From the NCBI RefSeq assembly GCF_003236295.1, contig NZ_POTW01000007.1, positions 1 through 64,000 on the forward strand: a stretch of 64,000 bases of DNA, in the 5' to 3' direction. Origin of the DNA: Jiangella anatolica (GTDB taxonomy: Bacteria; Actinomycetota; Actinomycetes; Jiangellales; Jiangellaceae). Shown here one piece after another: positions 43,015-60,269 of this stretch (within the stretch, counting starts at the first letter, position 1; each line of letters begins with the position of its first letter). The translations under genes and the position numbers were made by a program. Below the pieces are notes generated by a model that worked only from the letters and a program-made list of their open reading frames with translations, ran no database searches and had not been told where the DNA came from.

Positions 43015-44186
43015 CGCGGCGTCGCCACCTCGACGAGCACGGCGTCGGCGCCGGGCAGCGCGTTGGCCAGCACCCGGTCGCCGGACGGGTGGAAGACCGG
43101 GTGGTGGTCGGTGCTCAGCGGCGTGCGCCCGCCCGGATGCGTCGCGCCGCGGAACTTGGGCAGCTCGGTCCGCGCCACCTCCGCGCCGGTTGCTCGGGAG
43201 ACGAACACGACGGCGCCGCCGGTGGGCGTCGCCTCGTCGGTGACCAGCAGATCGGGATCCGCAGGACTCGCCGACGGGTGGCCGCCGCTGTCGTGGTCGC
43301 TCAGCTTGCGGTACCCGGTGCCGTCGTGACGGACCTCGGCCAGGCACATCCGGTCCGGCCGGTCCGGGTCGGGACCGTAGCCGATCAGCCGCTCGTCGTC
43401 CGGCTGCCACGACCAGTGCACGCCGGGCGCGCCGAAGCTGAGGTCGACGGCCAGCCGGACGTCGCTCAGGTCGGCGCGTGCGGTCATGACGTAGCCGACC
43501 TTCGGCTCGCCCCGGCTGTACGTCGCGAGGTGGTTGCCGAAGTAGAACAGCAGCCGCGAGCAGTCCGGGCTCCACCGCACGCAGTACGTCATCAATGAGA
43601 GCCCGCCATCCTGGTCGCGGTCGGCGAGCAGCAGCCGGTCGCGCTCCGGGTGCTCGTCGAGGACCTGCTGGACGGTCAGCACCAGCTCGCTGCGCCCGGC
43701 GTCGAAGTCGTGCGCGAACAGCCCGTGCTGGTCGCGCTTCCCGAACGGGACGGGCGACGCGTCGGCGCGGTAGACGCCGTCGCCCGCCCCGGCCGCGTGC
43801 AGCATGCCGAGCAGCCCCGACAGCAGCGGCGCGTCGCCGGGCGGCGCGCCCTCGAGGTCGCCGTCCAGAACGGCCTCGGCGCCGGTGGCCGGCTCGCGCC
43901 GCACCACCTGCGGCCGCTGCAGGGTGCCGCGGGTGTAGTACACGTACCGGGCGTCCGGCGACCAGGTCTGCCACCGGCCGGTGTGCCAGAACGACGCCTC
44001 GACCGGCCCGTCGCCGAACCGGTCGACCACCTCGCCGTCGGGGGACAGGACGAGCACCTCGCCCGTGCCCCGGGCCGGGTCGCCGCCGGCGGTGAGAACG
44101 CGGCCGCTGCCGTCCGGTGCGTACGGCACGACGGTGTAGTAGGCGTGCACGAGCCACCGGCCGGGCACGGACAGCGTTCTCACCAC
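43011..44186 (-). CDS. TolB-like/oligogalacturonate-lyase-like beta-propeller protein
   Basis: This 391-residue protein has repeated blades such as FWHTGRWQTWSPDARYVYYTRG, YCVRWSPDCSRLLFYFGNH, VHWSWQPDDERLIGYG and HHPVFHPSGDRVLANAL, as in TolB/WD40-like and PL22 oligogalacturonate lyases. No signal peptide is visible, so it is cytoplasmic, as oligogalacturonate lyases are. The GTG at 44186 has AAAGGA upstream and lies 12 bp after the beta-helix gene. The catalytic His-Mn2+ arrangement of PL22 cannot be confirmed by eye. Confidence 0.7.
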   Translation of the reverse strand: MVRTLSVPGRWLVHAYYTVVPYAPDGSGRVLTAGGDPARGTGEVLVLSPDGEVVDRFGDGPVEASFWHTGRWQTWSPDARYVYYTRGTLQRPQVVRREPATGAEAVLDGDLEGAPPGDAPLLSGLLGMLHAAGAGDGVYRADASPVPFGKRDQHGLFAHDFDAGRSELVLTVQQVLDEHPERDRLLLADRDQDGGLSLMTYCVRWSPDCSRLLFYFGNHLATYSRGEPKVGYVMTARADLSDVRLAVDLSFGAPGVHWSWQPDDERLIGYGPDPDRPDRMCLAEVRHDGTGYRKLSDHDSGGHPSASPADPDLLVTDEATPTGGAVVFVSRATGAEVARTELPKFRGATHPGGRTPLSTDHHPVFHPSGDRVLANALPGADAVLVEVATPR

Positions 44187-44198
44187 CGGCGAATCCTT

Positions 44199-47048
44199 TC
44201 AGCTGTTGACGGCGTCGACGGACAGGTCGGTCACGAGCGCGAACTCTTCAAGTGACGAGGTCATGGCCAGCTCCTCGACGTACGGGAAGTCCAGCCGCAG
44301 ATTGTTGAGCCTCGCTGCACCGGTCAGCGCCGGATGGCTCAGCTCGAGGTAGTACGTGGCAGGTCCGCTGCTGGGCGCGAGGTTGAACGTCAGCTTCTTG
44401 TTCGGGTCGGGTGCGGGCTCGGCCATCGTGGTGAAGAAGACGTTCATCCGCATCGTCGGCGAGCCGTTGGCGAAGGTCAGCTTCAGGTAGCGCTGGTCGC
44501 TGGCGTCGATGTCGAGCTGGTTCTGCGTCAGCACGTATGGCGCCGGCGAATCGTTGTCGGCCTCCCGCTTGAGGACGAGGTCGCCGTTCGTCCGGTTCCA
44601 CGACGACACGTTGCCGATCGTGACGCCGTCGGTGTCCTCCTCGAAGTCCCAGCTCGGCTCGGTCACCGTCGGGAGGGCGGACTGGCTGAGCGTGATCGAG
44701 TCGACGTCGATGATGCCCGCCGCCGCGGTCTCGTCGGGGAGGTCCAGCCGCAGCCGGGTGATGGTGCCGGCCCAGGCGGCCGTGCCCGTCACCGGGATGA
44801 CGATCTCCTGCGGCGAGGTCATCGCCGCCGGGACGGTGAAGGGGATGCGCTGGGTGGCGTTCCAGGTCGGGTCCGCGGCGGTGGTGAAGTAGAGCCGGCC
44901 CTGCGTCGCGGTGCCTGGGTTGCGCAGCGTGATCTTGACGGCGGCTACCGTCGACGCCGCGACGTTCAGGCCGGCGGGACTGTGCATGTAGGAGTCCGCG
45001 CAGCTGGGGGTGTACTGCAGCCGCCCGCCGGTGGCGGCGAGCGTGACGCAGTTGCCGGCCGTCCAGCCCTGCGGTCCGGCCGCGAAGCCCCAGCCGGTCG
45101 GCGTCAGCCCGGGGAACCCGAGAGCACGCGGCGCCCTGACGGTCCCATACGTGATCGGCAGGCCGGAGTTGTTGATGAAGGCCGGGGTGCGGAAGTCGCC
45201 GGTCACATCGCTGATCGTGACCCCGGTGGCGCCGCCGTTGACGATGACGCCGGCACGCACCGCCGCCATGGTGGGATCGACCACGTCGAGATCACGGACG
45301 GTGACAGTGTGCGGCTGGTTCGTGAGCGTGCCGAGCTGGATCGGGTGGATGCTGCTTCCCGCCGCCGGCGTGACGTCGTTGCCGGTCATGGTGATGCCGC
45401 GGCCGTGCTCGGCGCGGACCGCCGGGACGGTGATGCCGGTGAACCGGTTGTTGGTGATGGTGAACCCGGTCGCCGACGAGTCACTGGCGCCGGCGATGGC
45501 GTCGCCGCCGATGACGATGGCGCCCCGGTAGTCCTGCCGGATGAAGTCGTTGTTGTCGATGGTGAGGTTGGCGTTGATCGGGCCCTCGCCGCCGTTCGTC
45601 GCGACGGTGTGCACCAGCAGCCCCGCGGGAGTGTCGATGAAGTCGTTGCCGCTGACCAGCACGTCGCGGCCGTGCGGACGGATGCCGTGGCCGCGCAGGT
45701 TGCCGAACCGGTTGTTCGTGATGTCCACATCGGCGAACGTGGCGTTCGGGTTGAGGATCAGGGCGCCGTCGGACATGCCGGCGATGTTGCTGGTGAAGGT
45801 GACGGTGCCGCAGACGAGGGGAGCGTCGAGGTGACACGTGTCCGATGTCGCGGACACCTTGTCGACGGTGGTCGAGCCGAGGAGCCTCCGCGTCTCGAGG
45901 TCGTAGATCTCGACCGGATCGTCCTCGCGGAAGACGGAGTCGTGGCCCTCGATCTCGACGGCGGTGGCGATCACGGTGACCTGCTTCTGGGTGCCGGGGA
46001 TCACGCCGACGCCGCCGCGGGAGATCATGGTGAAGTTGATCGCGTCGTCGCCGCTGCCCTCGAACACGGACTCGTCGACGATCAGCTTGCCGCGGTTGTA
46101 GGTGGTCAGGTGCACGGCGTCGCGCGTCGAGCTGAGCAGCCGGCCCGGCCCCGGATAGGTCTCGTAGTCGCGCAGCGTCAGGTTCTCCATGCCCGACGAC
46201 CAGAGCCCCATGTAGTTCGAGGCCAGGTTCGTCACCCGCTCGATGACGATGTCCTTGTTGCGGCGCAGGCTGAGGGTCATGCCCTCACCGACAGCGGTGG
46301 CGAGCGCGATGCGCTGGCCGTTGAAGAACGTCGAGCTGGCGATGTCCGTGTAGTACAGCCGGTAGCGGCCCGGTCCCGAGATCCGTTCGCGCCAGCCGGC
46401 GGCACGGCCCGTGTTCGGGTAGAAGAACCGCACCGTGAGCTGGCCGTCGTCGTCCAGCGGGAAGCCGATCAGACCCGGGCTGACGGTGGCGCCGTCGTCG
46501 TTCACATAGGGGTTGAACATGGTCGACGCCAGGTCCGGGTACCGGTCCTCCACCACCGGGTTGTCATGCCCCTCCACCTCGACGTCGATGTATCCCAACG
46601 CGGCGTTGGACTGGTCGACGACGGTGAGCTGGGTCCACGGCAGATACGCGTTCGGCCGGTCCAGTCGCAGGTCCTGCAGGGTGACGTCCTCGCAGTCGCG
46701 GATGTCGAACGCGTTCAGCCGGTCACCGAGGGTCAGCAGAAGGGTGCCGCCGTCATTCTGCCCGGCGCCGCGGATGGTGATCCGGTCCGCGTCGTACAGC
46801 TTGAGTGGTGCGTCGATCCGGAACTCCCCGCTGGGGAACGTGACGGTGGCGGTCCGGGCCGGATCGGCGGCGGTGTAGGTCTTGGCGTTGGTGAGGACCT
46901 GCTGGATGGTGGCGGCGGTGGCGCCGGGCGCGATGGGAAAGTCCTGGGTGTCCGCTTGCGCGGGCAGGACGGCGGCCGGGCCGGCGAGGGCGGCGGCGGC
47001 CAGGGTCAGGGCGGCGAGAACGCGCGCGAACGCACGGTGGTGTCTCAT
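44199..47048 (-). CDS. Secreted right-handed parallel beta-helix protein, candidate glycoside hydrolase or lyase
   Basis: This 949-residue protein has a clear Sec signal (to about residue 32, ..LPAQA-DT). The beta-helix from about 35 to 630 has a pectate-lyase-3-like entry (ATIQQVLTNAKTYTAADPARTATVTFPSGEFRI). Its motifs include GSGDDAINFTMISRG, a DD pair reminiscent of GH110 and other helix glycosidases, and ITNNRFGNLRGHGIRPHGRDVLVSGNDF. Two C-terminal beta-sandwich modules follow (about 650-770 and 790-949), probably carbohydrate-binding. It lies 42 bp after the double-ATPase gene. The family is uncertain: GH110-like by pattern or a new lyase. Confidence 0.75.
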   Translation of the reverse strand: MRHHRAFARVLAALTLAAAALAGPAAVLPAQADTQDFPIAPGATAATIQQVLTNAKTYTAADPARTATVTFPSGEFRIDAPLKLYDADRITIRGAGQNDGGTLLLTLGDRLNAFDIRDCEDVTLQDLRLDRPNAYLPWTQLTVVDQSNAALGYIDVEVEGHDNPVVEDRYPDLASTMFNPYVNDDGATVSPGLIGFPLDDDGQLTVRFFYPNTGRAAGWRERISGPGRYRLYYTDIASSTFFNGQRIALATAVGEGMTLSLRRNKDIVIERVTNLASNYMGLWSSGMENLTLRDYETYPGPGRLLSSTRDAVHLTTYNRGKLIVDESVFEGSGDDAINFTMISRGGVGVIPGTQKQVTVIATAVEIEGHDSVFREDDPVEIYDLETRRLLGSTTVDKVSATSDTCHLDAPLVCGTVTFTSNIAGMSDGALILNPNATFADVDITNNRFGNLRGHGIRPHGRDVLVSGNDFIDTPAGLLVHTVATNGGEGPINANLTIDNNDFIRQDYRGAIVIGGDAIAGASDSSATGFTITNNRFTGITVPAVRAEHGRGITMTGNDVTPAAGSSIHPIQLGTLTNQPHTVTVRDLDVVDPTMAAVRAGVIVNGGATGVTISDVTGDFRTPAFINNSGLPITYGTVRAPRALGFPGLTPTGWGFAAGPQGWTAGNCVTLAATGGRLQYTPSCADSYMHSPAGLNVAASTVAAVKITLRNPGTATQGRLYFTTAADPTWNATQRIPFTVPAAMTSPQEIVIPVTGTAAWAGTITRLRLDLPDETAAAGIIDVDSITLSQSALPTVTEPSWDFEEDTDGVTIGNVSSWNRTNGDLVLKREADNDSPAPYVLTQNQLDIDASDQRYLKLTFANGSPTMRMNVFFTTMAEPAPDPNKKLTFNLAPSSGPATYYLELSHPALTGAARLNNLRLDFPYVEELAMTSSLEEFALVTDLSVDAVNS

Positions 47049-47090: not shown

Positions 47091-49250
47091 TCAGGGCCGG
47101 TCGGCGCGGACCCCGTCGAGATGGAGCTCCGCGTGCCGCAGGCAGGCCACGTCGTGGCCGGCGGCGACGGTCTCCAGTGCGGGCGGGCTGGCGGGCTGGT
47201 CGCACCGCCCGGCGACGGCGTGCGGGCACCGGGTGTGGAACCAGCAGCCGTCGGGTGGGTTGACCGGGTCGGGCAGGTCGTCGGAGAGCCGGGTGCGGCG
47301 CGTCCGCCGGCCGGGCTCGGGGACGGGTACGGCGGAGAGCAGCGCCTCGGTGTAGGGGTGCTTCGGCGCGGTGAAGAGCGTCGCGGTGTCGGCCAGCTCG
47401 ACGATCTTGCCGAGGTACATGACGGCGACCCGGTCGCACAGCGCCTCGACCACCGACAGGTCGTGGGAGATGAACACGTAGGTGAGCTGGAACTCGTCCT
47501 GCAGTTCGCGCAGCAGGTTGAGGATCTGCGCGCGGACCGAGACGTCGAGCGCGGAGACCGCCTCGTCGGCGACGACGAGCTTGGGCCCCAGGATGAGCGC
47601 GCGGGCGATGTTCACCCGCTGCCGCTGCCCGCCGGAGAACGCGTGCGGGTAGCGGTCCAGGTAGTCCGGTGACAGGCCGACCCTGCGCAGCATGTCGGCG
47701 ACCCGGTCGGTGAGCTCGGACCCGCGGGCGATGCCGTGGGTGACGAGCGGGTCGCCGATGATCTGGCGCAGCGTCATGCGTGGGTTGAGGGAGGAGAACG
47801 GGTCCTGGAAGACGGTGCGCACGTCACGCTGGTAGCGGCGCAGCGCTCCGCCGGACAGCCGGGTCACGTCGACGGGATCACCGTCGCCGTCCCGGTACTG
47901 GATCTGGCCGCTGGTCGGCGTCTCGGCCCGGACGATGCACCGGCCGAGCGTGGTCTTGCCGCAGCCGGACTCGCCGACCAGGCCGAGGGTCTCGCCCGGC
48001 CGGACGGTGAGGGAGACGCCGTCGACGGCGTGCACCTGGCCGGTGGTGCGGCCGAACATGCCGTGCCGGACGGGGAAAAGCATCCGCAGGTCGCGCACGT
48101 CCAGCAGCGGCGGACGGTCGGCGGTGACGGCGGTCGCCGCGGGCTCGGGGGTCGGCGCCGGCTCGACGACGGTCAGCGGGAGCGTCCGGCCGGCCGGGCG
48201 GTGGGCGTCGTCGTACAGCAGACACGCCACCTCGTGCCCGTCGCCGCCGTCCAGCGCCGCCGGGTCGACGGTGCCGCAGACGCCGGCGATCGCGTGGTCG
48301 CAGCGGGGATGGAACGAGCAGCCGGCCGGACGGCGCGCGCCGTGCGGCACCTGCCCGCGGACGGTGGGGAGGACCCGCTGCCGGCCCGAGCCCAGCCGCG
48401 GCACCGACCGCAGCAGCCGGTGCGTGTACGGGTGCCGCGGGTCGGTGAGGATCTGCTCCGTGCTGCCGTGCTCGACGACGCGGCCGAGGTACATGACGGC
48501 GACCTCGTCGGCGATCTCCGCGACGACGCCGAGGTCGTGGGTGATGAACAGCACCGACATGCCGGTGTCGGCCTGCAGCTCGGCGATGAGGTCCAGGATG
48601 CGGGCCTGGATGGTGACGTCGAGCGCCGTCGTCGGCTCGTCGGCGATGAGCAGCGCCGGCTCGCACGACAGAGCCACGGCGATCATGACCCGCTGGCACA
48701 TGCCGCCGGAGAGCTGGAAGGAGTACTCGTCGACGCGCTGTTCCGGCCGCGGGATGTGCACCCGCCGGAGCAGCGCGATCGCCTCGTCGCGGGCCTCGGC
48801 CTTGCTCAGCCCGCGGTGCAGGCGGAGCGTCTCGCCGAGCTGGTCGCCGACGGTGTACATGGGGGAGAGGGCGGCCAGCGGCTCCTGGAAGATCATCGAG
48901 ATCTGCTGGCCGCGGATCTGCCGGAACCGCGGGTCGGTGCGGCCGTAGCCGGCGAGGTCGACGCGCTCGCCGTCGCCCGGCGGCCGCCACCAGATGTGCC
49001 CGCCGCTGACCCGGCCGGGCGGGTCGACCAGCCCGAGGATCGAGCGCGCGGTCACGCTCTTGCCGCAGCCGGACTCGCCGACGAGGCAGACCGTCGAGCC
49101 CGGCGGGATGCGCAGGTCGACGCCGTCGACGGCGCGCACGAGGCCGTCGCGGGTGGCGAACTCCGTGCGCAGCCCGGACAGCTCCAGCAGCGGCGGCGCC
49201 GCGGGGCCGGCGGCGGTGAGCGTCGACCCGGTGAACTCCATGTCGGTCAC
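47091..49250 (-). CDS. Dipeptide-type ABC transporter double ATPase (DppD-DppF fusion)
   Basis: This 719-residue protein contains two complete ATPases. The first (about 20-340) has Walker [11 protein letters not shown], signature [15 protein letters not shown] and Walker [13 protein letters not shown]. The second (about 375-719) has [25 protein letters not shown] and [12 protein letters not shown], where the usual catalytic Glu-Pro reads Glu-Ala. Each half ends with the oligopeptide-transporter Cys-containing tail ([10 protein letters not shown] and [10 protein letters not shown]). I start at the GTG at 49250 with TGAGG upstream rather than a longer start. Confidence 0.92.
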
Positions 49251-49257
49251 GTGCGCC

Positions 49258-50406
49258 TCACCGGTACGGGTCGGCGGCGTCGCGCAGGCCGTCACCGACG
49301 AAGTTGAAGGACAGGACCGCCAGCACGACGGCGGCGCCGGGCAGCAGCAGCCACGGGGCGTCGGCCATCGCCCGGAAGTTCTGCGCCTGTTCGAGCAGGA
49401 CGCCCCAGCTGATGACCGGCGACTGCAGGCCCAGGCCGAGGAAGGACAGGGAGGTCTCGGCCAGGATCATCGCCGGGATCGACAGCGTGAGCGACGCGAC
49501 CAGGTGGCTGGTGAAGCTGGGCAGCATGTGCCGGAAGATCACCCGCCGCCGGGTGGAGCCGTCCAGCCGGGCCGCGGTGACGAACTGCTCGGTGCGCAGC
49601 GACAGGAACCGGCCGCGGACCACCCGCGCCAGGTCGGTCCAGGCGATGATGGCGAGGATGACGGTGATGGCGAAGTAGCGCTGCAACGGTCCCCAGTCGC
49701 GGGGGAGCGCGGCGGCCAGCCCCAGCCACAGCGGCAGCGTGGGCAGCGACATGAAGAACTCGACCACCCGCTGGATCAGGCCGTCGGTCTTGCCGCCGAC
49801 GTACCCGGAGATGCCGCCCAGCACGACGCCGAGCACGAACGCCAGCAGCACGCCGACCAGGCCGATGGTCATCGAGACCCGGGTGCCGTGGATGATCAGC
49901 GACAGCAGGTCGCGGCCGCGGTGGTCCGCGCCGAGCAGGTACACCGGCTGGTCCGGGTCCTTCGGCCCGAACAGGTGGACGTTCGTGTCGACCAGCCCGA
50001 GCAGCGAGTACGACTCGCCGCGGACGAAGAAGCCCAGCTCGATCCGGGTGTCGGGGTCGGTGGTGTGGGTGAGCTCCAGCGTCTCCGGGTCCTGCTCCAT
50101 CGTGTAGCCGTTGACGAAGAGACCCCAGTTCCAGTCGTCGCCGGACGTGTCGACCAGCTTCGGCAGCTGCGGCGGCGCGTAGATGTAGTCCTCGTCGAAC
50201 CAGCTGGTCGAGTGCGGCGCGAGGAACGAGGCCAGCAGCGCCACGAGGTAGAACCCGCTCAGCACGACCAGGCCGGCCATGGCCAGCTTGTGGCCGCGGA
50301 AGCGCCACCACACCAGCCGCCACTGCGACGCGCGGTCGCGATCGGCCGGCGCCGGACCCGGTTCCGGCGCGGGTGCCGCGTCCTCGGGCAGCAACGTCGT
50401 CGTCAC
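49258..50406 (-). CDS. Dipeptide-type ABC transporter permease (DppC-like)
   Basis: This 382-residue permease is longer than usual DppC. A leader rich in Pro and Ala precedes helix 1 (KLAMAGLVVLSGFYLVALLASFLAP). An extracytoplasmic insert of about 100 residues (DEDYIYAPPQLPKLVDTSGDDW to LFGPKDPDQPVYLLGAD) then separates it from the five-helix core. The EAA loop is EQFVTAARLDGSTRRRVIFRHMLPSF. The GTG at 50406 follows the DppB stop by 13 bp. The large loop resembles permeases of oligosaccharide-type transporters in this superfamily. Confidence 0.92.
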   Translation of the reverse strand: MTTTLLPEDAAPAPEPGPAPADRDRASQWRLVWWRFRGHKLAMAGLVVLSGFYLVALLASFLAPHSTSWFDEDYIYAPPQLPKLVDTSGDDWNWGLFVNGYTMEQDPETLELTHTTDPDTRIELGFFVRGESYSLLGLVDTNVHLFGPKDPDQPVYLLGADHRGRDLLSLIIHGTRVSMTIGLVGVLLAFVLGVVLGGISGYVGGKTDGLIQRVVEFFMSLPTLPLWLGLAAALPRDWGPLQRYFAITVILAIIAWTDLARVVRGRFLSLRTEQFVTAARLDGSTRRRVIFRHMLPSFTSHLVASLTLSIPAMILAETSLSFLGLGLQSPVISWGVLLEQAQNFRAMADAPWLLLPGAAVVLAVLSFNFVGDGLRDAADPYR

Positions 50407-50419
50407 GTGGTCCTCCCCT

Positions 50420-51412
50420 CTACCGCATCCCGAGCCGGACCCGCGGGTCCATGCGCGCGAGCAGGATGTCCGACAGCAGCGTCCCGACGACGGTCAGGAC
50501 GCTGACCAGCAGGATGATCGCCCCGGCCAGATACATGTCCTGGCTGCGCAGCGCCCGCAGCAGCAGCGGCCCGGTGGTGGGCAGCGACAGCACCTGCGAC
50601 ACGACGATCTCGCCGGACACCAGCAGCGGCAGCACCCAGCCGATCGTCGACAGGAACGGGCTCACCGCGACCCGCAGCGGGTACTTGAACAGGATCCGGG
50701 TCTCGCTCAGCCCGCGGGACCGGGCCGCGACGACGTACGGCTTGTGCAGCTCGTCGAGCAGGTTCGCCCGCAGGATGCGGATCAGCCCGGCCGTCCCCGC
50801 GGTGCCGAGCACGATGACCGGGATCCACAGGTGCCCGAGCAGGTCGGCGAACCGGGCCAGGCTCCAGGGCGCCTCCTCGTACTCCGCCGAGAACAGTCCG
50901 CCGACATCGGCGTCGAACACCGTCAGCGCGATGTACATGAGGCCGAGCGCCAGCAGGAAGTTCGGGATGGCCAGGCCGAGGAAGCCCACTGTCGTCGCCA
51001 CGTAGTCGCCCCACGAGTACTGCCGGACCGCCGAGTACAGCCCGATCGGGAACGCGACGATCCAGGTGAACAGGACGGTCGACAGTGTCAGCACGATGGT
51101 CAGCGGCAGCCGGCTGGACAGCAGCTCGGCGACCGGCTGGTTCCACTGGAACGACTGGCCGAAGTCGCCGTGCAGCACGATGTTGGAGATCCACGTCCAG
51201 TACTGCACGACGATCGGCTGATCCAGCCCGTACCGCTCCCTGATCGCCTCCAGCTGTGCGGTGTCGACCGTCTGGCCGTTGTCCTCGAGCTGGGACACCA
51301 GGGTGGTGGCGTAGTCGCCCGGCGGCAGCTGGATGATCGCGAACGACACCAGCGAGATCGCGAACAGCGTCGGCACCATGAGCCCGAGCCGCCGCGCGAC
51401 GAACCCCAGCAT
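50420..51412 (-). CDS. Dipeptide-type ABC transporter permease (DppB-like)
   Basis: This 330-residue permease has the N-terminal helix RRLGLMVPTLFAISLVSFAIIQLPPGDY and an outer region with LEAIRERYGLDQPIVVQYWTWISNIVLHGDFGQSF. Five more helices follow, with the EAA loop KPYVVAARSRGLSETRILFKYPLRVA. It forms the channel with the DppC-like protein encoded next. It lies 36 bp after the binding-protein gene. Confidence 0.93.
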   Translation of the reverse strand: MLGFVARRLGLMVPTLFAISLVSFAIIQLPPGDYATTLVSQLEDNGQTVDTAQLEAIRERYGLDQPIVVQYWTWISNIVLHGDFGQSFQWNQPVAELLSSRLPLTIVLTLSTVLFTWIVAFPIGLYSAVRQYSWGDYVATTVGFLGLAIPNFLLALGLMYIALTVFDADVGGLFSAEYEEAPWSLARFADLLGHLWIPVIVLGTAGTAGLIRILRANLLDELHKPYVVAARSRGLSETRILFKYPLRVAVSPFLSTIGWVLPLLVSGEIVVSQVLSLPTTGPLLLRALRSQDMYLAGAIILLVSVLTVVGTLLSDILLARMDPRVRLGMR

Positions 51413-51448: not shown

Positions 51449-53431
51449 TCAGGCCTGCGTGAAGTACTGCTCGGGGTTGGTCAGCGCGGGCGACTTCGCC
51501 CGGAAGCTGTCCGTCACGGCGGCGGGCACGTTGTGGAAGGAGTTCTTCACGATGCCGTAGCCGGGGCCGGCGGCCACGGTGCCGATGTGGAAGAACTGCT
51601 CCGCGGCCAGCCGCAGGATCTCCTTCATGAGCTGTTCCTGCTGGTCCGCAGCCGGGGTCTGCTGCAGCTCACGGTAGAGCTCGTACTGCTGCTGCACCTC
51701 GGCCGGGGGCGCCTCGCCCTCCGCGCCGCCGGAGGTGAACCACTGCGCCCACAGCTGCGCGTAGTCGGAGCGGTTGCTGGCCGGCAGGTACCAGTGCGGG
51801 TTGACGATCACGTCGACACCGCCGCCGGCCGGCCAGGCGATCGCGTCGTGCTGGTTGGCCTTGCGGCGCTCCTCCAGCAGCGTCCGCTCGATGCCCTCCG
51901 GCCGCATGTCGATGCCGACCTCGGCCCAGTACCCGGAGATCAGGTCGAGGACGTCGGCCTCGTTGGTGACGCCGGCGTGCGAGACGAGGAACCGGATCGG
52001 CTGGCCGTCCGGGCCGAGCCGCAGGCCGGCGTCGTCGCGCTGGCTGAAGCCGGCGGCGTCGAGGTGCTGGTTGGCGAGGTCGACGTCGTACTCGGTGTAC
52101 TGCGTCGTCATCTCCTCGTCGTAGAACGGCGACTCCTCGCGCGGCGCCACCTGCGACGGCGTGCCCTGGCGCTGGAAGACGGTGTCGATCAGCTGCTGCC
52201 GGTCGATCGCGTGCGAGAGGCCGATGCGGAAGTCCTTGTTGGCGAACACCTCCCGCAGCACCGGGTTCTGGTGGGTGAGGTTGAGCATGATCGACATCCG
52301 GTTCGCCTGCGACGGCGTGAGCTCGAAGAAGTCGAAGCCGGCGTCCTCGCGCGCGTCGGCCAGCAGCGGCTTGTTCGTCGGCGTGTTGAAGTTGCGCCAG
52401 TGCATGTCGAAGTCGCCCTGCAGCGCGCCGGCGAGCATGACCTCGTTGTCCTCGATGACCTGGAAGCTCACGCCGTCGAGGTAGGGCAGCTGGCTGCCGC
52501 CGGGGTCGACCTTCCAGTAGTACGGGTTGCGCTCCAGCTCGACCCGGGTGCCCGCGCCGACCGGAGTCTTGGTCTTCCACGGGAAGATGACCGGAATGTC
52601 GGCGTTCATCGTGGGGTCGACCTTCAGTGCGAACAGGCTGACCCAGCTGTCCTGGCCCTCGGCCGCGACCAGCGCGGCGACGTCCGGGTTGTGCGCGGCG
52701 TGGAACTGCTGCAGGTAGTGCTTGGGGACGATCAGCGTGACCGCCTCGGCCAGGGCCGGCAGGAACAGTCCGTTCGGCTGCTCGAAGACGAACGTGACCG
52801 TGAGCGGGTCGTCGACGCGCAGCGTGGCGGGCACGCCGCCGCTGCTGTAGGCGTTCTTGTCGATGGCCATCTTCGCCGGCAGTTCCGCGTTCAGGACGAT
52901 GTCCTGGTAGCCGAAGGCGATGTCGTCGGCGGTGAACGGCTCCCCGTCGGACCACTTCATGCCCTCGCGCAGGTGGAACGTGTACTCCGTCCCGTCCGCG
53001 TCGACCTCGTAGGACGAGGCGACGTTGGCGATGATCTCCTCGTCGCCCGGCGCGCCGGTCCAGTCCGGCACCCAGCGGACCAGTCCCTCGTACATCGTCG
53101 AGAGCGCGATGCCGGTCTGGTCGCCGGGGCCGTTGAACGCGGACTGCCAGATGCCGCCGTACTGCCCGATGCGGTCGTTCGGCTCGACGACCAGCGGCTC
53201 GGCCGGCAGCCGTTCCTCGACGGGCGGCAGCTGACCCTGCTCGACGAGGTCGGCGAGTTGCGGCGCCTCCTTGCCCTTGGCGGCGCTGGCCGGTGTGTCG
53301 TCCGAGCCGCTGCCCGAACCGCCGCCGGAACAGGCGGCGAGGACGACGGAGCCGGCCACGGCGCCGGCGCCGGCCAGGAACATGCGGCGGCCGATGACCG
53401 GTGGCCGGCGCGAGGTGGTGGGGCGGTTCAT
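51449..53431 (-). CDS. ABC transporter substrate-binding lipoprotein (SBP family 5), Tat-type signal
   Basis: This 660-residue protein has a signal with a twin arginine (GRRMFLAGAGAVAG) followed by lipobox LAAC, so it is a Tat-exported lipoprotein. The SBP_bac_5 core has YEVDADGTEYTFHLREGMKWSDGEPFTADD, ERNPYYWKVDPGG and FRIGLSHAIDRQQLIDTVF. At 660 residues it belongs to the longer subgroup that often serves oligosaccharides. It is followed by the two permeases and the double ATPase, and preceded by the GH105 gene 59 bp away. Confidence 0.92.
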   Translation of the reverse strand: MNRPTTSRRPPVIGRRMFLAGAGAVAGSVVLAACSGGGSGSGSDDTPASAAKGKEAPQLADLVEQGQLPPVEERLPAEPLVVEPNDRIGQYGGIWQSAFNGPGDQTGIALSTMYEGLVRWVPDWTGAPGDEEIIANVASSYEVDADGTEYTFHLREGMKWSDGEPFTADDIAFGYQDIVLNAELPAKMAIDKNAYSSGGVPATLRVDDPLTVTFVFEQPNGLFLPALAEAVTLIVPKHYLQQFHAAHNPDVAALVAAEGQDSWVSLFALKVDPTMNADIPVIFPWKTKTPVGAGTRVELERNPYYWKVDPGGSQLPYLDGVSFQVIEDNEVMLAGALQGDFDMHWRNFNTPTNKPLLADAREDAGFDFFELTPSQANRMSIMLNLTHQNPVLREVFANKDFRIGLSHAIDRQQLIDTVFQRQGTPSQVAPREESPFYDEEMTTQYTEYDVDLANQHLDAAGFSQRDDAGLRLGPDGQPIRFLVSHAGVTNEADVLDLISGYWAEVGIDMRPEGIERTLLEERRKANQHDAIAWPAGGGVDVIVNPHWYLPASNRSDYAQLWAQWFTSGGAEGEAPPAEVQQQYELYRELQQTPAADQQEQLMKEILRLAAEQFFHIGTVAAGPGYGIVKNSFHNVPAAVTDSFRAKSPALTNPEQYFTQA

Positions 53432-53490: not shown

Positions 53491-54564
53491 TCAGCCGTAG
53501 CGGCCGGGACGCAGTTCGACGGCGGTGACGCCGTGCCGGTGCGCCTCGGTGAGCGCGAGCAGCAGCGGCCCGAAGCTGTGCGGCTCGTCGCGGTGGGGGA
53601 GCAGCGTCATGTACGACTGCACGGTGCCCTTCCGGGGGCCCGTCCCCGGGCACAGACAGCCCGGGCAGCTGAACTCGGTCGAGAAGTCCGGGTTGACGCA
53701 GATCGAGGTCAGCGCGCCGATGCCGCGGCGGAACGCCGAGCCGAAGTCGCCGGCGTCGAGGACACCGGCGCGCAGCCCGACGCCGATGCCGTAGAGGATG
53801 AGCGCCGAGCCCGAGGTCTCCTCGTAGGCCAGCGGGTGCGGGATCTCCTGGCGCCACAGCCCGCGATGCGACTGGTGCGGCAGTAGCGCGTAGGAGAGCG
53901 CGACGAAGCGCCGGACCACCTCCTCGCGGTGCTGCGAGCTGGCCGGCAGGCCGTCGACCAGCTCGGCCAGCGCGAGGTAGCCCCAGCCGTTGCCGCGGCT
54001 CCAGTGGTCCTGCGAGAACCGGTCCGGCGCGACGAAGTTCCGGCACTGGTGCAGCAGCCCGCAGCTGTGGTCGATGAGCGCGTCGTGCAGGCCGACGGCC
54101 TGGCGGACCGCCTCGTCGAGGTAGCGCTCGTCCTCCAGCGCCAGCCCGGAGTGGAGCAGGTACGGCGCGGTGGCCATGGCGGCGTCGATCCAGATCAGCT
54201 CCGCCGCGGGCTCGGCCGGCATGACGACCAGGCCGGCGCGGTCGCGCGGCGCGGTCATCATCTCCTCGGCGTACTCGCGGACCAGGTCGGCGCGGTCGGA
54301 CATCCGGCCCTGGGCCAGCAGGTACGCCTGCGGGATCCCCCCGATGCGGTAGCTGGGGAAGTTGTAGTGCGGGTGCTCGACCTCGTCGGGGAAGCGGCGC
54401 AGGATCTTCTCCGTCCGCGCCCACAGCTCCTCGTCGCCCCCCGCCGCGGCGGCGCGCGCCAGGCCGTAGATCGCCAGCAGCCCGTAGTAGTGCTTGACCT
54501 CGGCGATGCTCTCGTAGTGGTCGTAGAGGCCGACGGCGGCGGTCAGCGGTCGCATGGTGGTCAT
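53491..54564 (-). CDS. Glycoside hydrolase family 88/105-like (unsaturated glycuronyl hydrolase)
   Basis: This 357-residue alpha/alpha-barrel protein has DEVEHPHYNFPSYRIGGIPQAYLLAQ, ELIWIDAAMATAPYLLHSG (a candidate catalytic Asp), DHSCGLLHQCRNF, the characteristic WSRGNGWGYLALAELVDGLP and ETSGSALILYGIGVGLRAG. GH105 enzymes remove the terminal unsaturated uronic acid that a polysaccharide lyase leaves. No signal peptide is visible, so it acts after uptake. The ATG overlaps the SDR stop as ATGA. It is the best functional clue in the operon. Confidence 0.85.
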   Translation of the reverse strand: MTTMRPLTAAVGLYDHYESIAEVKHYYGLLAIYGLARAAAAGGDEELWARTEKILRRFPDEVEHPHYNFPSYRIGGIPQAYLLAQGRMSDRADLVREYAEEMMTAPRDRAGLVVMPAEPAAELIWIDAAMATAPYLLHSGLALEDERYLDEAVRQAVGLHDALIDHSCGLLHQCRNFVAPDRFSQDHWSRGNGWGYLALAELVDGLPASSQHREEVVRRFVALSYALLPHQSHRGLWRQEIPHPLAYEETSGSALILYGIGVGLRAGVLDAGDFGSAFRRGIGALTSICVNPDFSTEFSCPGCLCPGTGPRKGTVQSYMTLLPHRDEPHSFGPLLLALTEAHRHGVTAVELRPGRYG

Positions 54565-55274
54565 CGGCCGAAAGCCTCGAGCTCGATGCTGCTGATCTGC
54601 ACCCGGGCCGGCGTGCGGAGCACGAACTCGACCGCGTCGACGACGTCGTCGGCCGTCATGAGCGCGGACCGGTCGACCGGGCGGTCGCCCCAGAACGGCG
54701 TGTCGACGCCGCCCGGCGCGAGCGTCGTGACCCGGATGCCGCGCTCGCGGACCTGCAGCCCGAACGCGCGGGTGAACATGTCCAGGGCCGCCTTCGCGGT
54801 GCAGTACAGCGGCGCGGTCGCGTTGGGCCGGCGGCCGGCCAGCGAGCTGACGTTGACCACCTGCGCGCCCGACTGCGGCTTCATCAGTGGGAGCACGTGC
54901 TTGCTGCTGAGGAACGCCGAGGTGACGTTGGAGTGCCAGACGGCGAGGTAGTCCTCGACGTCGGTGTCGGCGACCTCGCCGGGGATCGACCGCCCGGCGA
55001 GGTTGACCAGCGCGTCGACGTGTCCCGTGCGGCGGCCGACCTCCTCGTAGAGCCGGGCCACCTGCGCCGCGTCGGCGAGGTCGGCCGGGACCGCGGTGAC
55101 GCGGTCGCCGTCGCCGTCGCCGGCCAGCTCGTCCGTGAGCGCGGCCAGCCGGCCGGCGTCGCGGGAGGTGAGCACCAGGCGCGCACCGGCGACGTGCAGC
55201 CGGCGCGCCAGCGCGGAGCCGATGCCGCCGGCTGCGCCGGTGACGACGACGACCCGATCGGTGAGGTCAGCCAT
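54561..55274 (-). CDS. Short-chain dehydrogenase/reductase
   Basis: This 237-residue classical SDR has VVVTGAAGGIGSALARRL at the N-terminus, NLAGRSIPG in place of the usual NAG, a catalytic S in VVNVSSLAG and Y-x3-K in PLYCTAKAALDMF. Placed between the GH105 and RraA genes, it may reduce or oxidise a sugar-acid intermediate such as a 5-keto-4-deoxyuronate relative. That is inference from context only. Confidence 0.85.
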   Translation of the reverse strand: MADLTDRVVVVTGAAGGIGSALARRLHVAGARLVLTSRDAGRLAALTDELAGDGDGDRVTAVPADLADAAQVARLYEEVGRRTGHVDALVNLAGRSIPGEVADTDVEDYLAVWHSNVTSAFLSSKHVLPLMKPQSGAQVVNVSSLAGRRPNATAPLYCTAKAALDMFTRAFGLQVRERGIRVTTLAPGGVDTPFWGDRPVDRSALMTADDVVDAVEFVLRTPARVQISSIELEAFGR

Positions 55275-55285
55275 GCCCGTGCCCT

Positions 55286-55951
55286 TCAGAAGTAGCCGCC
55301 GCGGTCGACGACGTCGCGTGGAGTGGAACCGTCCTCGATCAGCTGCTTGATGCCGACCTCGTCGTGCTTGATCCGCTCGGCCTCGAGCAGCACCGGCACC
55401 GCCAGCTCGGCCGGCACGACGATGACGCCGTCGATGTCGCCGAAGAGCAGGTCGCCCGGCTCGATCACGACGCCGCCGATGCTGATCGAGTGCTGCCAGC
55501 CGGTGATCCGGAATCGGCCGAGCATGCCGCTGGAGCTGCGATACCGGCTGAAGACGGGGAAGTCCTGGGAGAGCACGCGGTCGGTGTCGCGGACGCCGCC
55601 GTCGATGACGGCGCCCCGGCAGCCCTGGCGGCGCGCGGCCATGGTCATCACCTCACCCCACTGCGCCGACTCGTCGTCGCGGCCGGTGTCCCAGACGCAG
55701 ACCGCGCCGGGCCGGATCGACTCGAGCATCGCGGCGCGCTCGGGCATGTCGTTGACCCCGCCGCGGTCCTTCTCGCCCGCGACGGTGAACGCGAACCCGG
55801 CCAGCTTCATCTCGTCGCGCAGCGGGCGGATGTCGTGCGGCAGTGTCTGGTCGACCAGCCCGCGGCCGCGGAGCACGTCGTTGACCGCGCCGGTGAACAG
55901 CTGCACGTACCGCTGGAGCAGCTCGTCGTCGGGGATGAGAGGCGTGGTCAA
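55286..55951 (-). CDS. RraA family protein (HMG/CHA aldolase-like)
   Basis: This 221-residue protein shows the RraA/demethylmenaquinone-methyltransferase-like fold: GRGLVDQTLPHDIRPL, GDLLFGDIDGVIVVPAELA and the metal and substrate motif GCRGAVIDGGVRDTD (Arg and Asp of the aldolase site). Relatives include pyruvate aldolases for oxaloacetate-like or hydroxy-oxo acids and the RNase E regulator RraA; in a catabolic operon the aldolase is more likely. The start is a TTG at 55951, after GGGAG. It is the first gene of the ten-gene operon. Confidence 0.8.
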   Translation of the reverse strand: MTTPLIPDDELLQRYVQLFTGAVNDVLRGRGLVDQTLPHDIRPLRDEMKLAGFAFTVAGEKDRGGVNDMPERAAMLESIRPGAVCVWDTGRDDESAQWGEVMTMAARRQGCRGAVIDGGVRDTDRVLSQDFPVFSRYRSSSGMLGRFRITGWQHSISIGGVVIEPGDLLFGDIDGVIVVPAELAVPVLLEAERIKHDEVGIKQLIEDGSTPRDVVDRGGYF

Positions 55952-56059
55952 CAGCTGCTCCCGTGAGTCGCGGGGGTGTCCATCAGATGTCCTCCAGGTG
56001 TCGGTTCGCGACCGTCAGTATGTGCGCCGCCCGGGCGGCGCGACCATGGACGTGGCACC

Positions 56060-56078
56060 GAGTATTTGCACGAATCGC
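56060..56078. promoter_or_regulatory. Conserved 19-nt motif upstream of the RraA-led operon
   Basis: GAGTATTTGCACGAATCGC lies about 108 bp upstream of the operon start and matches the motif at 58429-58447 (reverse strand) at 17 of 19 positions. Its core ATTTGCACGAAT is an imperfect palindrome. Apart from this motif the 256-bp region 55952-56207 shows nothing that I can name. Confidence 0.55.
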
Positions 56079-56207
56079 CGAGCCGCGCCGCAGCGGCACG
56101 CCGTGTGCGACGTCTCCGTAAACGGGTGAACTACCAGGTCGCCAGCGGTGCGGAGGACGCGCGGCCGGTTCACGAGCGAGGCGGTGCGAATGCGTCATTG
56201 TGCTGGA

Positions 56208-57425
56208 TCAGCGCAGGCTGACGGCCAAGCCGTCCCGCAGGAACGCCTCGTACTGGGCGGCGATCAGCCGCGGGTCGCCCCTCAGCAGCGGCACGGGCTC
56301 CGACGGCACGTCGCTGGGGAACACGTCGGCCAGGTCCGCGGCCTCGCGGTCGCACCCGGACAGGCGCCTGGCCAGCTGCTCCGTGGTGAGGGCGGCTCGC
56401 GGCCAGGCCGGGAGGCATGCGGGCAGCGGCGGCTGCGGCGGGTCGGTCACCGTCTCCTGCCACAACACGCCGAGGTGTGCGCAGACGAAGCGGGCCAGCA
56501 AGCGTCGCCGGCGGGCGTCCCATCCGTGCCCGCCGGGCAGCACCTCCGCTGCGAATCGGCCGGCCGCGCCCGCCCGGTCGAAGGCGGTGAAGGTCCGGCG
56601 CGCGGTCTCCCAGAACAGGTCTTCAGGGAAGAAGTGGTCGTCGCGCCCCTGGAAGAGCAGCAGGGGCGTGGGCGCGATGCTGCCGTAGAGCTGCCACATC
56701 TCGAGCTCACCGACGATGCCGGGCAGCAGCGTGCAGTGGCAGAGCTGCTTCTCCTTCCGGGCGACGAACGTGAACCTGCTCGGGAAGCCCGACGACGACA
56801 CGACCGCCAGATCGTCGCGGCACAGCGCCCCGGCCAGCAGCGACAGCAGGCCGCCGCCGGAGTTGCCGACGAGTCCGATCCGGGCCCGGTCGATCCGCGG
56901 GTCGGCCCGCAGCCACCGCAGCCATGCCATGGTCTCCATGACGATCAGCCCCTGCAACGAGAGGTCGCACGCAAAGACACCCGGGACCTCCTGGTGTCCC
57001 ATCGCCGCTCGCTCGCCCTGCCCGAGGTTGTCGCTGACCAGGACGGCGACGCCCTGCCTGGCCAGGAGCCCGGCGAGCGCGCGGTAGGCCGGGGCGCGCT
57101 TGGCGCCGTCGGCATGGCCGCAGGCCAGGATCACCGCCGGCGCCGGCCCGTTCACTTGGGGGAGGTAGAGATCAGCGGCGCACCACACGCCGGGCCAGGA
57201 CGTCGCCTGGAGGTGCTCGGTCGTCCAGGCCTCGCCGGCCGTCTCGCCGACCTGGCCCGTCCGCACCTCGAGCGACGGCACCAGCTGCGGGTCGAGGCCC
57301 AGGCAGCGCCGGGCCGCCGCGAGGATGCTCATCCGCTCGTCGTCGACCCATGGGCGCCGCTCCGGCGCCGTGTCGAGAGCTCGGCGGAAGCGCCGGTCGT
57401 AGCCGGCGAAGAGGTCGGCGGTCAC
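56208..57425 (-). CDS. Alpha/beta hydrolase, acetyl xylan esterase/cephalosporin deacetylase-like
   Basis: In this 405-residue protein, the hydrolase core carries a nucleophile elbow GLVGNSGGGLLSLL. Upstream is VILACGHADGAKRAPAYRALAGLLARQGVAVLVSDNLGQGERA, the layout of large carbohydrate-esterase-like hydrolases. Near the C-terminus are LLLFQGRDDHFFPEDLF with the acid and LPGGHGWDARRRRL with the catalytic His. No signal peptide is visible. The GTG at 57425 overlaps the stop of the upstream propeller gene as GTGA. It probably deacylates imported plant-derived oligosaccharides; exact substrate unknown. Confidence 0.82.
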   Translation of the reverse strand: MTADLFAGYDRRFRRALDTAPERRPWVDDERMSILAAARRCLGLDPQLVPSLEVRTGQVGETAGEAWTTEHLQATSWPGVWCAADLYLPQVNGPAPAVILACGHADGAKRAPAYRALAGLLARQGVAVLVSDNLGQGERAAMGHQEVPGVFACDLSLQGLIVMETMAWLRWLRADPRIDRARIGLVGNSGGGLLSLLAGALCRDDLAVVSSSGFPSRFTFVARKEKQLCHCTLLPGIVGELEMWQLYGSIAPTPLLLFQGRDDHFFPEDLFWETARRTFTAFDRAGAAGRFAAEVLPGGHGWDARRRRLLARFVCAHLGVLWQETVTDPPQPPLPACLPAWPRAALTTEQLARRLSGCDREAADLADVFPSDVPSEPVPLLRGDPRLIAAQYEAFLRDGLAVSLR

Positions 57426-58371
57426 GGCCGGCTCCCGGCGTCGGCGCGTGTGACGCTGCGGTGCTCGGCCAGGTCGGCGACGTCGATCGCGAAGACGTGG
57501 TTCGTGCGCGTGCGCGGGTCGCCGGCGGTGACGAGCAGGTGCCGGCGGCCGGGCAGCACCCGGGCGTGGTGGTGCGCCTTCTGGCCGGCGCCGTATACCG
57601 GCCAGTCGCCGGTCAGGTCCAGCCAGTCGGTGTCGGCCGGGCCGCGGTAGCGCAGCAGCGCCCGCAACCGGCGGTGCGCGCGATCGGCGCCCAGGCTCTC
57701 GTACAGCCACAGCGCGCCGGCCGGGTCGAACCCGACGTGCGTGTCGCCGTCGGCCGGCAGCGCGAACTCGACGCGGGCGCCGGTGTCCGGGTCGAGCAGA
57801 CCGCCGTGGTCGCGGCCGTCGCCGCGCACCTCGTAGGCGATGCCGGCGTCGGTCGCGCAGTAGTGACACGTCATGCCCGCATCGTCCTGGGTGCGCAGAT
57901 GGCGGTAGCCGCCGCCCCGCAGATCGGTGACGAGGATGCTGCGCTCCGTCGCCAGGCTGGAGAACACGAGGCGGCCGGCGCCGAGCGGATGGACGTGGTG
58001 GAACGGGCGCGGATGTCCACGGCGCGGGCCTGCGCCCCGTCGAAGTAGATCACCTCGCCGCGCACCGGGTCGATCGCGCTGCGGTGGTCCAGCACGCTCG
58101 GACCGGCCGGGACGCACCACGGCCGCCAGTGCGTGTCGTCGCCGGTCGCGTGGGTCAGCTGGACGGACTCGCCGGTGCCGAGGTCGAGCCGCCAGAGCTG
58201 GACCCCGGTGGCGTCGGCCCGGTGGTGGACAAGGTAGCGGTCGAAGGTCGACGGCACGAAGTAGTAGAGCGGATAGCAGAACGCGTCGCCGGTGGTGAGC
58301 TGCCAGGCGGCGCGCCCGGCGCCCGGTGCGTCGAGGCGCTCGAACGTGGGCGACAGGTCGGGGATCGGCAT
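57422..58371 (-). pseudogene. Oligogalacturonate-lyase-like beta-propeller gene with a frameshift
   Basis: The N-terminal part (58371 to about 58003) reads PLYYFVPSTFDRYLVHHRADATGVQLWRLDLGTGESVQLTHATGDDTHWR, close in layout to PL22 oligogalacturonate lyases. After AVDIRAR the frame loses similarity, and the same protein continues in the neighbouring frame from FHHVHPLGAGRLVFSS to the stop at 57422. Codon positions imply one missing base near 58000-58006 (minus-strand CGTTCC). The total length is 950 bp, one short of a multiple of three. It is either a real pseudogene, a sequencing error at a C/G-rich site, or programmed slippage; the first two are likelier. Confidence 0.75.
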
Positions 58372-58428
58372 GGCCGCCCACCGTAGGCGGGCCGCCGCGG
58401 GAGGTTCCAGAGCCCGGCCGGATGCTCA

Positions 58429-58447
58429 GCGATTCGTGCAAAAGCTC
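58429..58447. promoter_or_regulatory. Conserved 19-nt motif between divergent propeller and beta-helix genes
   Basis: On the minus strand the site reads GAGCTTTTGCACGAATCGC, 17/19 identical to 56060-56078. It lies about 104 bp upstream of the beta-helix gene at 58552 and 58 bp upstream of the divergent propeller gene. The 180-bp intergenic region also holds a GGACATGTCC palindrome at 58456-58465. Confidence 0.55.
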
Positions 58448-58551
58448 GGCAGCTTGGACATGTCCACAGCTTTGTCACCTTTGCGATACTCCCCAGACCC
58501 ATCGGCGAAATGTCTGCGTGCCGATGCCCTGCACGAAGGGGAGGACGATCG

Positions 58552-60258
58552 ATGAAGATCACCCGAGGTCTGCTGGCGGCCGCGGTTCTGGTCGCCGGCG
58601 CCGTGCTCGCCGCGCCGCCGGCCACCGCCGCCGGCACCACGTACTACGTCGACAGGACGAACCCCGCCTGCAGCGACTCCGGGCCGGGCAACGCCACGAC
58701 GCCCTGGTGCACCTTCACCCCCGTCAACAGCCACGGCGCCTTCGGCCCGGGCGACTCGATCCTGCTGGCCCGTGGCGTGATCTGGGACCAGTGGCTCGAC
58801 CTGGAGGGGTCGGGCACCGCGGCCGAGCCGATCACCCTCGGCGCCTTCGGCGCCGGCGCCAAGCCGAAGATCACCAACAACGACACCGCCAACAGCGGCT
58901 ACGGCATCCGGGTCACCGACGGGTCGCACTGGGTGATCAAGGACCTGGAGATCGACGGCGCCGGGGCGAACAAGCTCGACGCGGGCGTCCAGGTGGTGTA
59001 TCCCGCCGAGAGGCGCTTCGGCCTGACCCTGAGCAATCTGTACGTCCACCACAACCGGCTCGGCATCGCGGTCACCGGTGCGGCGTCGGCGGGGATCGAC
59101 GACGTCGTGATCACCGGCGTCGAGGGCACGCACAACGAGACGTCCATCGCACTGGGCAGCGGCACGACGCCGGCGTCATTCATCCGCGGCGCCCTGATCA
59201 GCAAGGTGAACCTGCACCACGACGACGGTGCGCCGGCGCCGGAGCGCGACTGCCGCGACTCGCTGGCGTTGCAGAGCGCGACCGACCTGATCGTCACCAA
59301 CTCGCTGATCAGCTACGCGGGCGGGTGCCACGCACCGGCGGGCACGACCGGTGTCTACGTAGGCCACGTCGCCGACTCGACACTGCTGAACAACATCATC
59401 GTCAACACCGCCCAGACGGCGTCGCCCGACCAGTCCGGCATCGTGTTCCAGGCCGGCGCGTCCAACGTCGCCGTCCGGGGGAACTACCTCGGCGGTCACC
59501 CGCGGTGGAGCGTCGAGGTGCTCAACATCCACCAGTCGCCGGCCGGCGACCACGCCGGCGTGGTGGTCGACGCGAACGCGATGGCGCTCAACGGCACCGG
59601 GGACTCGATCTACAAGTACGGCACGCTGTCGACGTCGACCGGAACCATCGACCGCAACCTGTGGCAGGGCACGAGCCTGACGCGGGCCGACGGCACGACG
59701 TTCGCCGGCTTCGTCATCGGCGGGCAGGGCGCGAACCCGGGCCCGGTCACCAGCGACCGCGTCTGGTACGCGGCCCGCGACTACACGAACGCCCAGGGCT
59801 ATCAGGGCTGGCGATACGAGTACTCGACCGATGCCAGCGTCACCTGGTCGCCGTTGACCTACATCTCGGCGGCGCAGGGGTGGCGACGTGCCGCCGACGG
59901 GCTGCCGATGATCAACCAGTGGAACCTGGCGCCCGCCGGCGGCACGTCGGCCCGGGTCGCGCGGTCCTGGACCGCCCCGGCGACCGGGACCGTCGCGATC
60001 ACCGGGCAGGTCGCCATGAGTTCGAGCGTCGGCGACGGCGTCCGGGTCCACGTGCTGAGGACGACCGGCAATGGCGCCAACACCGTGGTTCTGGGGCCCA
60101 TCACCGTCGGCGCCGGGGACCTGGCCGGGAAGCCGACGGCGGTGTCCAGCCTGCAGGTCGCCGCGGGCGACGTGATCAGGTTCGTCGTCGACTCCGGCAC
60201 CTCCGGCGCGAACGGCGGCGACACCGTCAACTGGTCCCCGGCGATCGGCTACCTGTGA
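58552..60258 (+). CDS. Secreted right-handed parallel beta-helix protein with C-terminal beta-sandwich
   Basis: This 568-residue protein has a Sec signal peptide cut after ATAA (about residue 31). The polysaccharide-lyase-like N-terminus TTYYVDRTNPACSDSGPGN leads into helix turns such as GIRVTDGSHWVIKDLEIDGAG, GVQVVYPAERRFGLTLSNLYVHHN and GVYVGHVADSTLLNNIIVNT to about residue 390. The last 150 residues are a beta-sandwich (TGTVAITGQVAMSSSVGDGVRVHVLR), probably carbohydrate-binding. ATG start with GGGGAGG. It is followed after 11 bp by the large glycosidase, so the two form a secreted pair. Confidence 0.82.
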   Translation: MKITRGLLAAAVLVAGAVLAAPPATAAGTTYYVDRTNPACSDSGPGNATTPWCTFTPVNSHGAFGPGDSILLARGVIWDQWLDLEGSGTAAEPITLGAFGAGAKPKITNNDTANSGYGIRVTDGSHWVIKDLEIDGAGANKLDAGVQVVYPAERRFGLTLSNLYVHHNRLGIAVTGAASAGIDDVVITGVEGTHNETSIALGSGTTPASFIRGALISKVNLHHDDGAPAPERDCRDSLALQSATDLIVTNSLISYAGGCHAPAGTTGVYVGHVADSTLLNNIIVNTAQTASPDQSGIVFQAGASNVAVRGNYLGGHPRWSVEVLNIHQSPAGDHAGVVVDANAMALNGTGDSIYKYGTLSTSTGTIDRNLWQGTSLTRADGTTFAGFVIGGQGANPGPVTSDRVWYAARDYTNAQGYQGWRYEYSTDASVTWSPLTYISAAQGWRRAADGLPMINQWNLAPAGGTSARVARSWTAPATGTVAITGQVAMSSSVGDGVRVHVLRTTGNGANTVVLGPITVGAGDLAGKPTAVSSLQVAAGDVIRFVVDSGTSGANGGDTVNWSPAIGYL

Positions 60259-60269
60259 GGAGAATGATC

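Follow-up and report, generated by a model that had tools for sequence, protein, structure and literature searches.

Does a single regulator act on two polysaccharide operons of Jiangella anatolica that are each preceded, at almost the same distance, by the same short stretch of DNA and, if so, which gene encodes it, and does it turn the operons on or off? The DNA analysed here (the ‘window’) comprises bases 1-64000 of contig C234, 64,000 nucleotides in all, and the genes that bear on the question are listed below.

43011..44186, minus strand, beta-propeller-like protein without a family match, whose orthologue lies beside sites in Occultella
44199..47048, minus strand, right-handed beta-helix protein (PF13229, 26.6 bits, cut-off 25.9)
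47091..51412, minus strand, two Opp-type permeases and a double ATPase
51449..53419, minus strand, solute-binding protein SBP_bac_5
53491..54564, minus strand, GH88/GH105-type unsaturated glycuronyl hydrolase (PF07470)
54561..55274, minus strand, short-chain dehydrogenase (PF00106)
55286..55951, minus strand, RraA-like aldolase family gene (PF03737), first in its operon
57434..58371, minus strand, second beta-propeller-like gene, disrupted here by an internal deletion that shifts the frame
58552..60258, plus strand, beta-helix protein (PF13229), predicted target of site 2 (see below)

The second beta-propeller-like gene is intact in G009, a genome of the same genus (393 aa; L106:4773-5951), and an S15-like hydrolase gene (56208-57425), not found at that place in G009, sits between it and the RraA operon.

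The original prediction was of a 19-nt element ahead of the RraA-led operon and, reversed, ahead of the beta-helix gene, and comparison within the window bears this out: the two copies, GAGTATTTGCACGAATCGC (56060-56078, plus strand) and GAGCTTTTGCACGAATCGC (58429-58447, minus strand), are identical at 17 of 19 positions, contain the same 14-base core, TTTGCACGAATCGC, without mismatch, share their orientation relative to the gene that each precedes, and stand, as had been claimed, at nearly equal distances from it (108 nt from the edge to the RraA TTG at 55951 and 104 nt to the beta-helix ATG at 58552). Counts of the 14-mer in the window alone are uninformative, showing no enrichment at up to 3 mismatches (2 found, both of them exact, against 3.56 expected), and were replaced by scans of the whole genome and across genomes. 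Many random occurrences in the genome had been named beforehand as what would speak against the element, and the genome scan did not find them: in the 7.0 Mb draft genome the exact core occurs twice, at the two reported places alone; 2 more copies, with 1 mismatch, lie on the same contig at 64707 and 66588 (0.7 and 2.6 kb past the end of the window); and matches with 2 mismatches are scattered over 10 places, the reversed-pattern control giving 5 at up to 2 mismatches.

The element proved to be real but incomplete: the original prediction missed the other block of the site as well as two additional copies. Read towards the gene, all four copies carry a second fixed block, ATG, 17 bases beyond the core (in the opposite reading, a CAT that precedes TTTGC by 17 bases). 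The full site is bipartite, GCGATYCGTGCAAA-N13-GTCYATGG, the 19-mer making up its distal half. In the 7.0 Mb genome, CAT-N17-TTTGCACGAATCGC matches 4 places with no more than 1 mismatch; no place has 2 mismatches, and 3 places have 3 (the reversed pattern gave 2). The four sites at up to 1 mismatch all fall on one contig within a span of 10.6 kb, two of them just outside the window.

56045..56079, minus strand, site 1, putative operator of the RraA-led operon, reading GGCGATTCGTGCAAA-N13-GTCCATG towards the gene; conserved in G009
58429..58462, plus strand, site 2, putative operator of the beta-helix gene, reading GCGATTCGTGCAAA-N17-ATG towards the gene
64687-64720, site 3, outside the window, on the same contig and in the same numbering
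66568-66601, site 4, outside the window, on the same contig and in the same numbering

The broken beta-propeller-like gene, which is divergent, also has site 2 some 58 nt upstream. Across 12 non-redundant sites, read in the activating orientation, CG, T4, GT, C10, AA, G19, G27 and AT are invariant (12 of 12). The sites carry an imperfect direct repeat, GTSYAW, with its two copies (GTGCAA and GTCYAT) 20 bp apart, the proximal of which departs from GTSYAW at 4 of 14 sites (both beta-helix rows, site 3 of G009 and the RraA site of G054). A palindromic operator of the LacI/GntR type was ruled out, the site being asymmetric and in two parts.

Where, then, is the regulator? The original prediction saw no suitable gene within 42-64 kb, which holds for the window, where the 13 proteins scanned with Pfam include no regulator, but not for the DNA just beyond it, where two AraC-family genes lie.

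65623-66531, plus strand, AraC1, another AraC-family gene, flanked by a PhyH-type gene and AraC2 (L015:2623-3528 corresponds to 65623-66528)
66639-67451, plus strand, AraC2, AraC-family regulator, 2.6 kb past the end of the window

The start codon of AraC2 is 38 bp from the end of site 4 and, downstream, a GH78-type alpha-L-rhamnosidase gene lies on the other strand. The protein (270 aa) has a C-terminal pair of AraC-type helix-turn-helix motifs (HTH_18, 4.9e-19; HTH_AraC over two stretches), seen as helices in the model, and an N-terminal cupin-like ligand domain (AraC_binding, 1.8e-10), which in the model resembles the ligand domains of AraC and BgaR; by structure comparison its domain fold is like that of AraC, ToxT and BgaR. 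On both domains, AraC2 is a member of the AraC/XylS family. Regulators of this family bind asymmetric half-sites in direct repeat, to which the imperfect repeat of the present sites may correspond. Assignment as the AraC equivalog was rejected (NCBIfam NF007860, 77.1 bits, below the cut-off of 208), as was assignment to the RhaS or RhaR equivalogs (NCBIfam, 47.8 and 47.3 bits, below cut-offs of 288 and 363).

AraC1 belongs to the same family and itself adjoins site 4, which might suggest that it, or indeed another regulator, is the partner of the sites; we regard this as very unlikely. At E<=1e-15, AraC1 has matches in 3 of 8 genomes (this one; G009, where a 68% relative with a stop is found on another contig; and G086, where the match is partial, at 41%), but none in Phytoactinopolyspora endophytica, Occultella aeris, G054 and G128, all of which have sites, nor in G005, and on this distribution across the 8 genomes AraC1 was ruled out as the site partner.

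Returning to AraC2, we found orthologues in G009 (97%), P. endophytica (68%), O. aeris (about 58%), G086 (58%), G054 (56%) and G128 (56%), and in every one of these genomes the bipartite site recurs, with identical spacing, beside genes of the same cluster; Jiangellales and Micrococcales are separate orders. The gene order in Occultella runs binding protein, permeases, ATPase, AraC2, site, RraA, dehydrogenase, GH88, with further sites before the binding-protein gene and before a heparinase-like gene. In P. endophytica, AraC2 and a divergent zinc-dehydrogenase gene have one site between them, RraA and a divergent heparinase-like gene have two, and a fourth match, at 3 mismatches, is on another contig.

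Within the genus, AraC2 is present (at 97-100%) in 2 of 12 genomes, and exactly those have sites at up to 1 mismatch, four in each, the other 10 having no site below 3 mismatches. Among 396 genomes of Occultella's order, AraC2 (E<=1e-30) occurs in 4, which amount to two close pairs (G086 and G128 being close to G023 and G054). Of the 396, 15 have sites with 2 mismatches or fewer: 2-3 in each of the 4 that have AraC2 (the three of G128 include one on another contig, C22) and a single one in each of the other 11; two or more such sites are thus confined to the regulator-bearing genomes. At up to 1 mismatch, sites are limited to those 4 and G270, and the reversed control gave 7 matches in all over the 396 genomes; the single sites of the 11 regulator-less genomes, G270 included, look like background. 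A draw of 393 genomes from the class has AraC2 at E<=1e-40 only in G000 (this genome), G009, G005 and G017. The consensus used in the scans came in part from sites of G000 and O. aeris, and the independent lineages that stand behind this whole pattern are few: Jiangella, Phytoactinopolyspora and two lineages of Occultella's order. Across the 22 genomes of the order, the regulator and the GH88 gene are found in the same 4, so co-occurrence by itself cannot tell the regulator apart from some other factor conserved at this locus. G005 carries a 46% homologue of AraC2 beside RraA and GH88 genes; the scan of its genome gave no site at up to 2 mismatches, and a degenerate site (CAGATCGTGCAAA...) lies between its dehydrogenase and RraA genes, with TAATCT 21 nt past the proximal end. 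A regulator and site that had drifted together would fit this arrangement, if only weakly.

The position of the sites relative to the promoters bears on what the regulator might do. Downstream of each of the two sites in the window is a hexamer resembling a -10 element.

56017..56022, minus strand, -10-like hexamer CATACT, 22 nt after site 1
58485..58490, plus strand, -10-like hexamer GATACT, 22 nt after site 2

Spacing was tested on 12 of 21 sites (from G009, P. endophytica, O. aeris and G054), near-duplicates having been dropped (4 sites of this genome, 3 of G086 and 2 of G128); the degenerate G005 site stands outside all counts, as does a weak O. aeris site before the beta-propeller-like gene, which has 5 mismatches to the first bipartite pattern and CAAGGT at +22. 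A NANNNT hexamer lies at +22 past the proximal ATG in 9 of these 12 non-redundant sites and at +21 in the other 3, the next best hexamer offset accounting for 2 of 12, and 0 of 5000 shuffles reached 9 (highest count 5), figures to be read in the knowledge that the pattern was picked after viewing the alignment and that orthologous promoters recur among the 12 sites. In this genome the hexamer is at +22 in 3 of 4 sites, site 4 being without a match, and the P. endophytica site before the dehydrogenase gene has a weak -10 alone (AAGGCT at +21). The best -35 match at a spacing of 16-18 nt agrees at 2-4 of 6 positions, the 4s being at the beta-helix promoter; a sigma-70 consensus scan of 55900-58600, which gave 0 promoter-like sites against 0.1 expected, is little informative.

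If the hexamer is taken as the -10, the operator would cover about -67 to -35, with its proximal half over the -35 region. Class II activation by AraC-type regulators shows such a promoter layout, and the predicted arrangement, with a site over the -35, a fixed distance to the -10 and a poor -35 hexamer, is that of a class II activator-dependent promoter. The original prediction had left the choice between activator and repressor, and it is by geometry that an activator is to be favoured. We think it improbable that AraC2 uses the sites mainly to repress, by occupying promoters without inducer: site 4 is close upstream of the regulator gene and faces away from it, as an autorepression site could, and AraC itself represses in its apo form (PMC4486848), but each of the 12 non-redundant sites is followed by a -10-like hexamer and has its proximal half across the -35, the poor -35 matches fit activation, and the scan of the 7.0 Mb genome for bipartite sites with 2 mismatches or fewer turned up no candidate, for looping or otherwise, beyond the four.

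The shared bipartite site, the fixed spacing to the -10, the conservation across genera and the co-occurrence with one AraC-family gene together lend good support to the earlier proposal of one regulator for both operons and, judging from sequence, we hold it to be highly probable that one AraC-family activator, encoded at 66639-67451, has as its operator the bipartite site of which the 19-mer forms the distal half.

Comparison with G009 provides what might be called a ‘natural footprint’ of this operator. Upstream of RraA, the two genomes agree from the gene outwards over the -10 and the two half-sites, and conservation breaks off about 12 bases past the distal edge of site 1. That the two copies in the window arose by chance, or are a recently duplicated stretch without function, is a reading to which the lack of enrichment of the loose 14-mer in the window alone might lend itself, but we find it scarcely credible, given that conservation stops so close to the site edge, that the bases flanking the two copies differ, and that the identical site and spacing recur at the loci of other genera.

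In the same comparison, site 4 is a conserved island of 57 bp, with unlike flanks on the left and, on the right, a short unaligned gap followed by conserved AraC2. Site 4 of G009 has CACACT at +22 and faces a gene related to that for the 60264-63584 product of the window, the ATG of the G009 gene coming 80 nt after the proximal half-site; in this genome AraC1, which occupies the place held by another gene in G009, and the PhyH gene are there instead, and the -10 match and the target gene have been lost. Because AraC1 and PhyH have replaced the target and the -10 match is gone, site 4 is best taken as the putative remnant operator of a target gene since lost, and it may also play a minor part in autoregulation. 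Contigs C436 (right end) and C140 (left end) of G009, i.e. L106 and L081, have at least 60 identical bases in common, and one G009 gene appears to span the two contigs between sites 3 and 4. A nucleotidyltransferase-like gene downstream of site 3, so named from the appearance of its sequence and without a Pfam match, is split over three frames here (L015:668-1651; contig 63668-64651, minus strand) and forms one 334-aa frame in G009 (L106:12979-13983), where its GTG comes 7 nt after the CACACT hexamer, suggesting that the transcript may be leaderless.

As to what the predicted regulon might act upon, the GH88 protein has 10 PDB sequence matches at E<=1e-5, including YteR and an unsaturated 3S-rhamnoglycuronyl hydrolase (4ce7), which we take to be linked to ulvan, and we infer that the substrate would be an unsaturated uronate oligosaccharide. 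The beta-propeller-like protein (43011-44186) has no Pfam, NCBIfam or PDB sequence match, and its low-confidence model (mean pLDDT 57.8) finds mostly TolB among its best structural matches, with oligogalacturonate lyase at rank 15. Ahead of RraA is an 11-codon frame (55948-55983, minus strand) with its ATG at 55983, a good ribosome-binding site, GGAGG, and a stop that overlaps the RraA TTG; it is arranged alike in G009 (L106:3847-3879), and might possibly serve as a leader peptide or in translational coupling.

Synthesising these observations, we infer a model in which a dimer of AraC2 would bind the two GTSYAW copies of the imperfect direct repeat, spaced by 20 bp, the proximal one covering the -35 region, and would recruit RNA polymerase to promoters that have no good -35 box. 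The trigger would be a product formed when an acidic polysaccharide is taken up or broken down, with AraC2, as a local and probably sugar-responsive regulator, turning on a small set of genes that may degrade acidic plant-type polysaccharide.

Such a model has parallels in known systems. E. coli AraC at araBAD (I1-I2) resembles AraC2 in joining an AraC_binding domain to two helix-turn-helix motifs and in its two adjacent half-sites, and its I2 half-site lies at -35, as the proximal half would here. The two differ in motif, in that no looping site was found for AraC2, and in that the AraC2 targets are not arabinose genes. The use of I1 and I2 by AraC at araBAD is described in PMC4486848. PMC3870299 describes local AraC-type regulons for rhamnose and its polymers under RhaS, RhaR and RhgR, and several AraC-family rhamnose/rhamnogalacturonan motifs that are direct repeats with a periodicity of 21 bp, as against 20 bp and another motif for AraC2. 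The RhaS and RhaR models give AraC2 48 bits or less, with cut-offs of 288 or more. BgaR, an AraC-family lactose sensor, is the best match to the AraC2 ligand domain among the 50 rows listed (TM by target 0.66-0.76), but at 16-18% identity, and its ligand and targets are presumably other ones.

The regulon is conserved in at least three genera and two orders, with four sites in this genome. We also lean, with rather less assurance than for the operator and its regulator, towards the wider reading that an actinobacterial AraC-family activator with its own bipartite motif controls the uptake and breakdown of an unsaturated-uronate polysaccharide by way of an RraA-family enzyme, a short-chain dehydrogenase and a GH88/GH105 hydrolase. 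Literature searches on Jiangella AraC regulators, AraC/rhamnogalacturonan regulons, Occultella regulons and the motif, judged largely by title, found no earlier description of this regulon among the matches listed; the regulon would be a new one, but the principle of regulation is an ordinary one, already known.

Two look-alike stretches of DNA have thus become a defined regulon whose regulator gene is identified, whose operator spans 34 bp and whose promoter layout can be predicted, and which might yield a compact inducible promoter for actinobacteria. Beyond this, the regulon provides a ‘handle’ for finding the polysaccharide that is served by the RraA/GH88/transporter cluster: if our reading is true, the inducer of AraC2 would reveal the polysaccharide substrate of the RraA/GH88 pathway.
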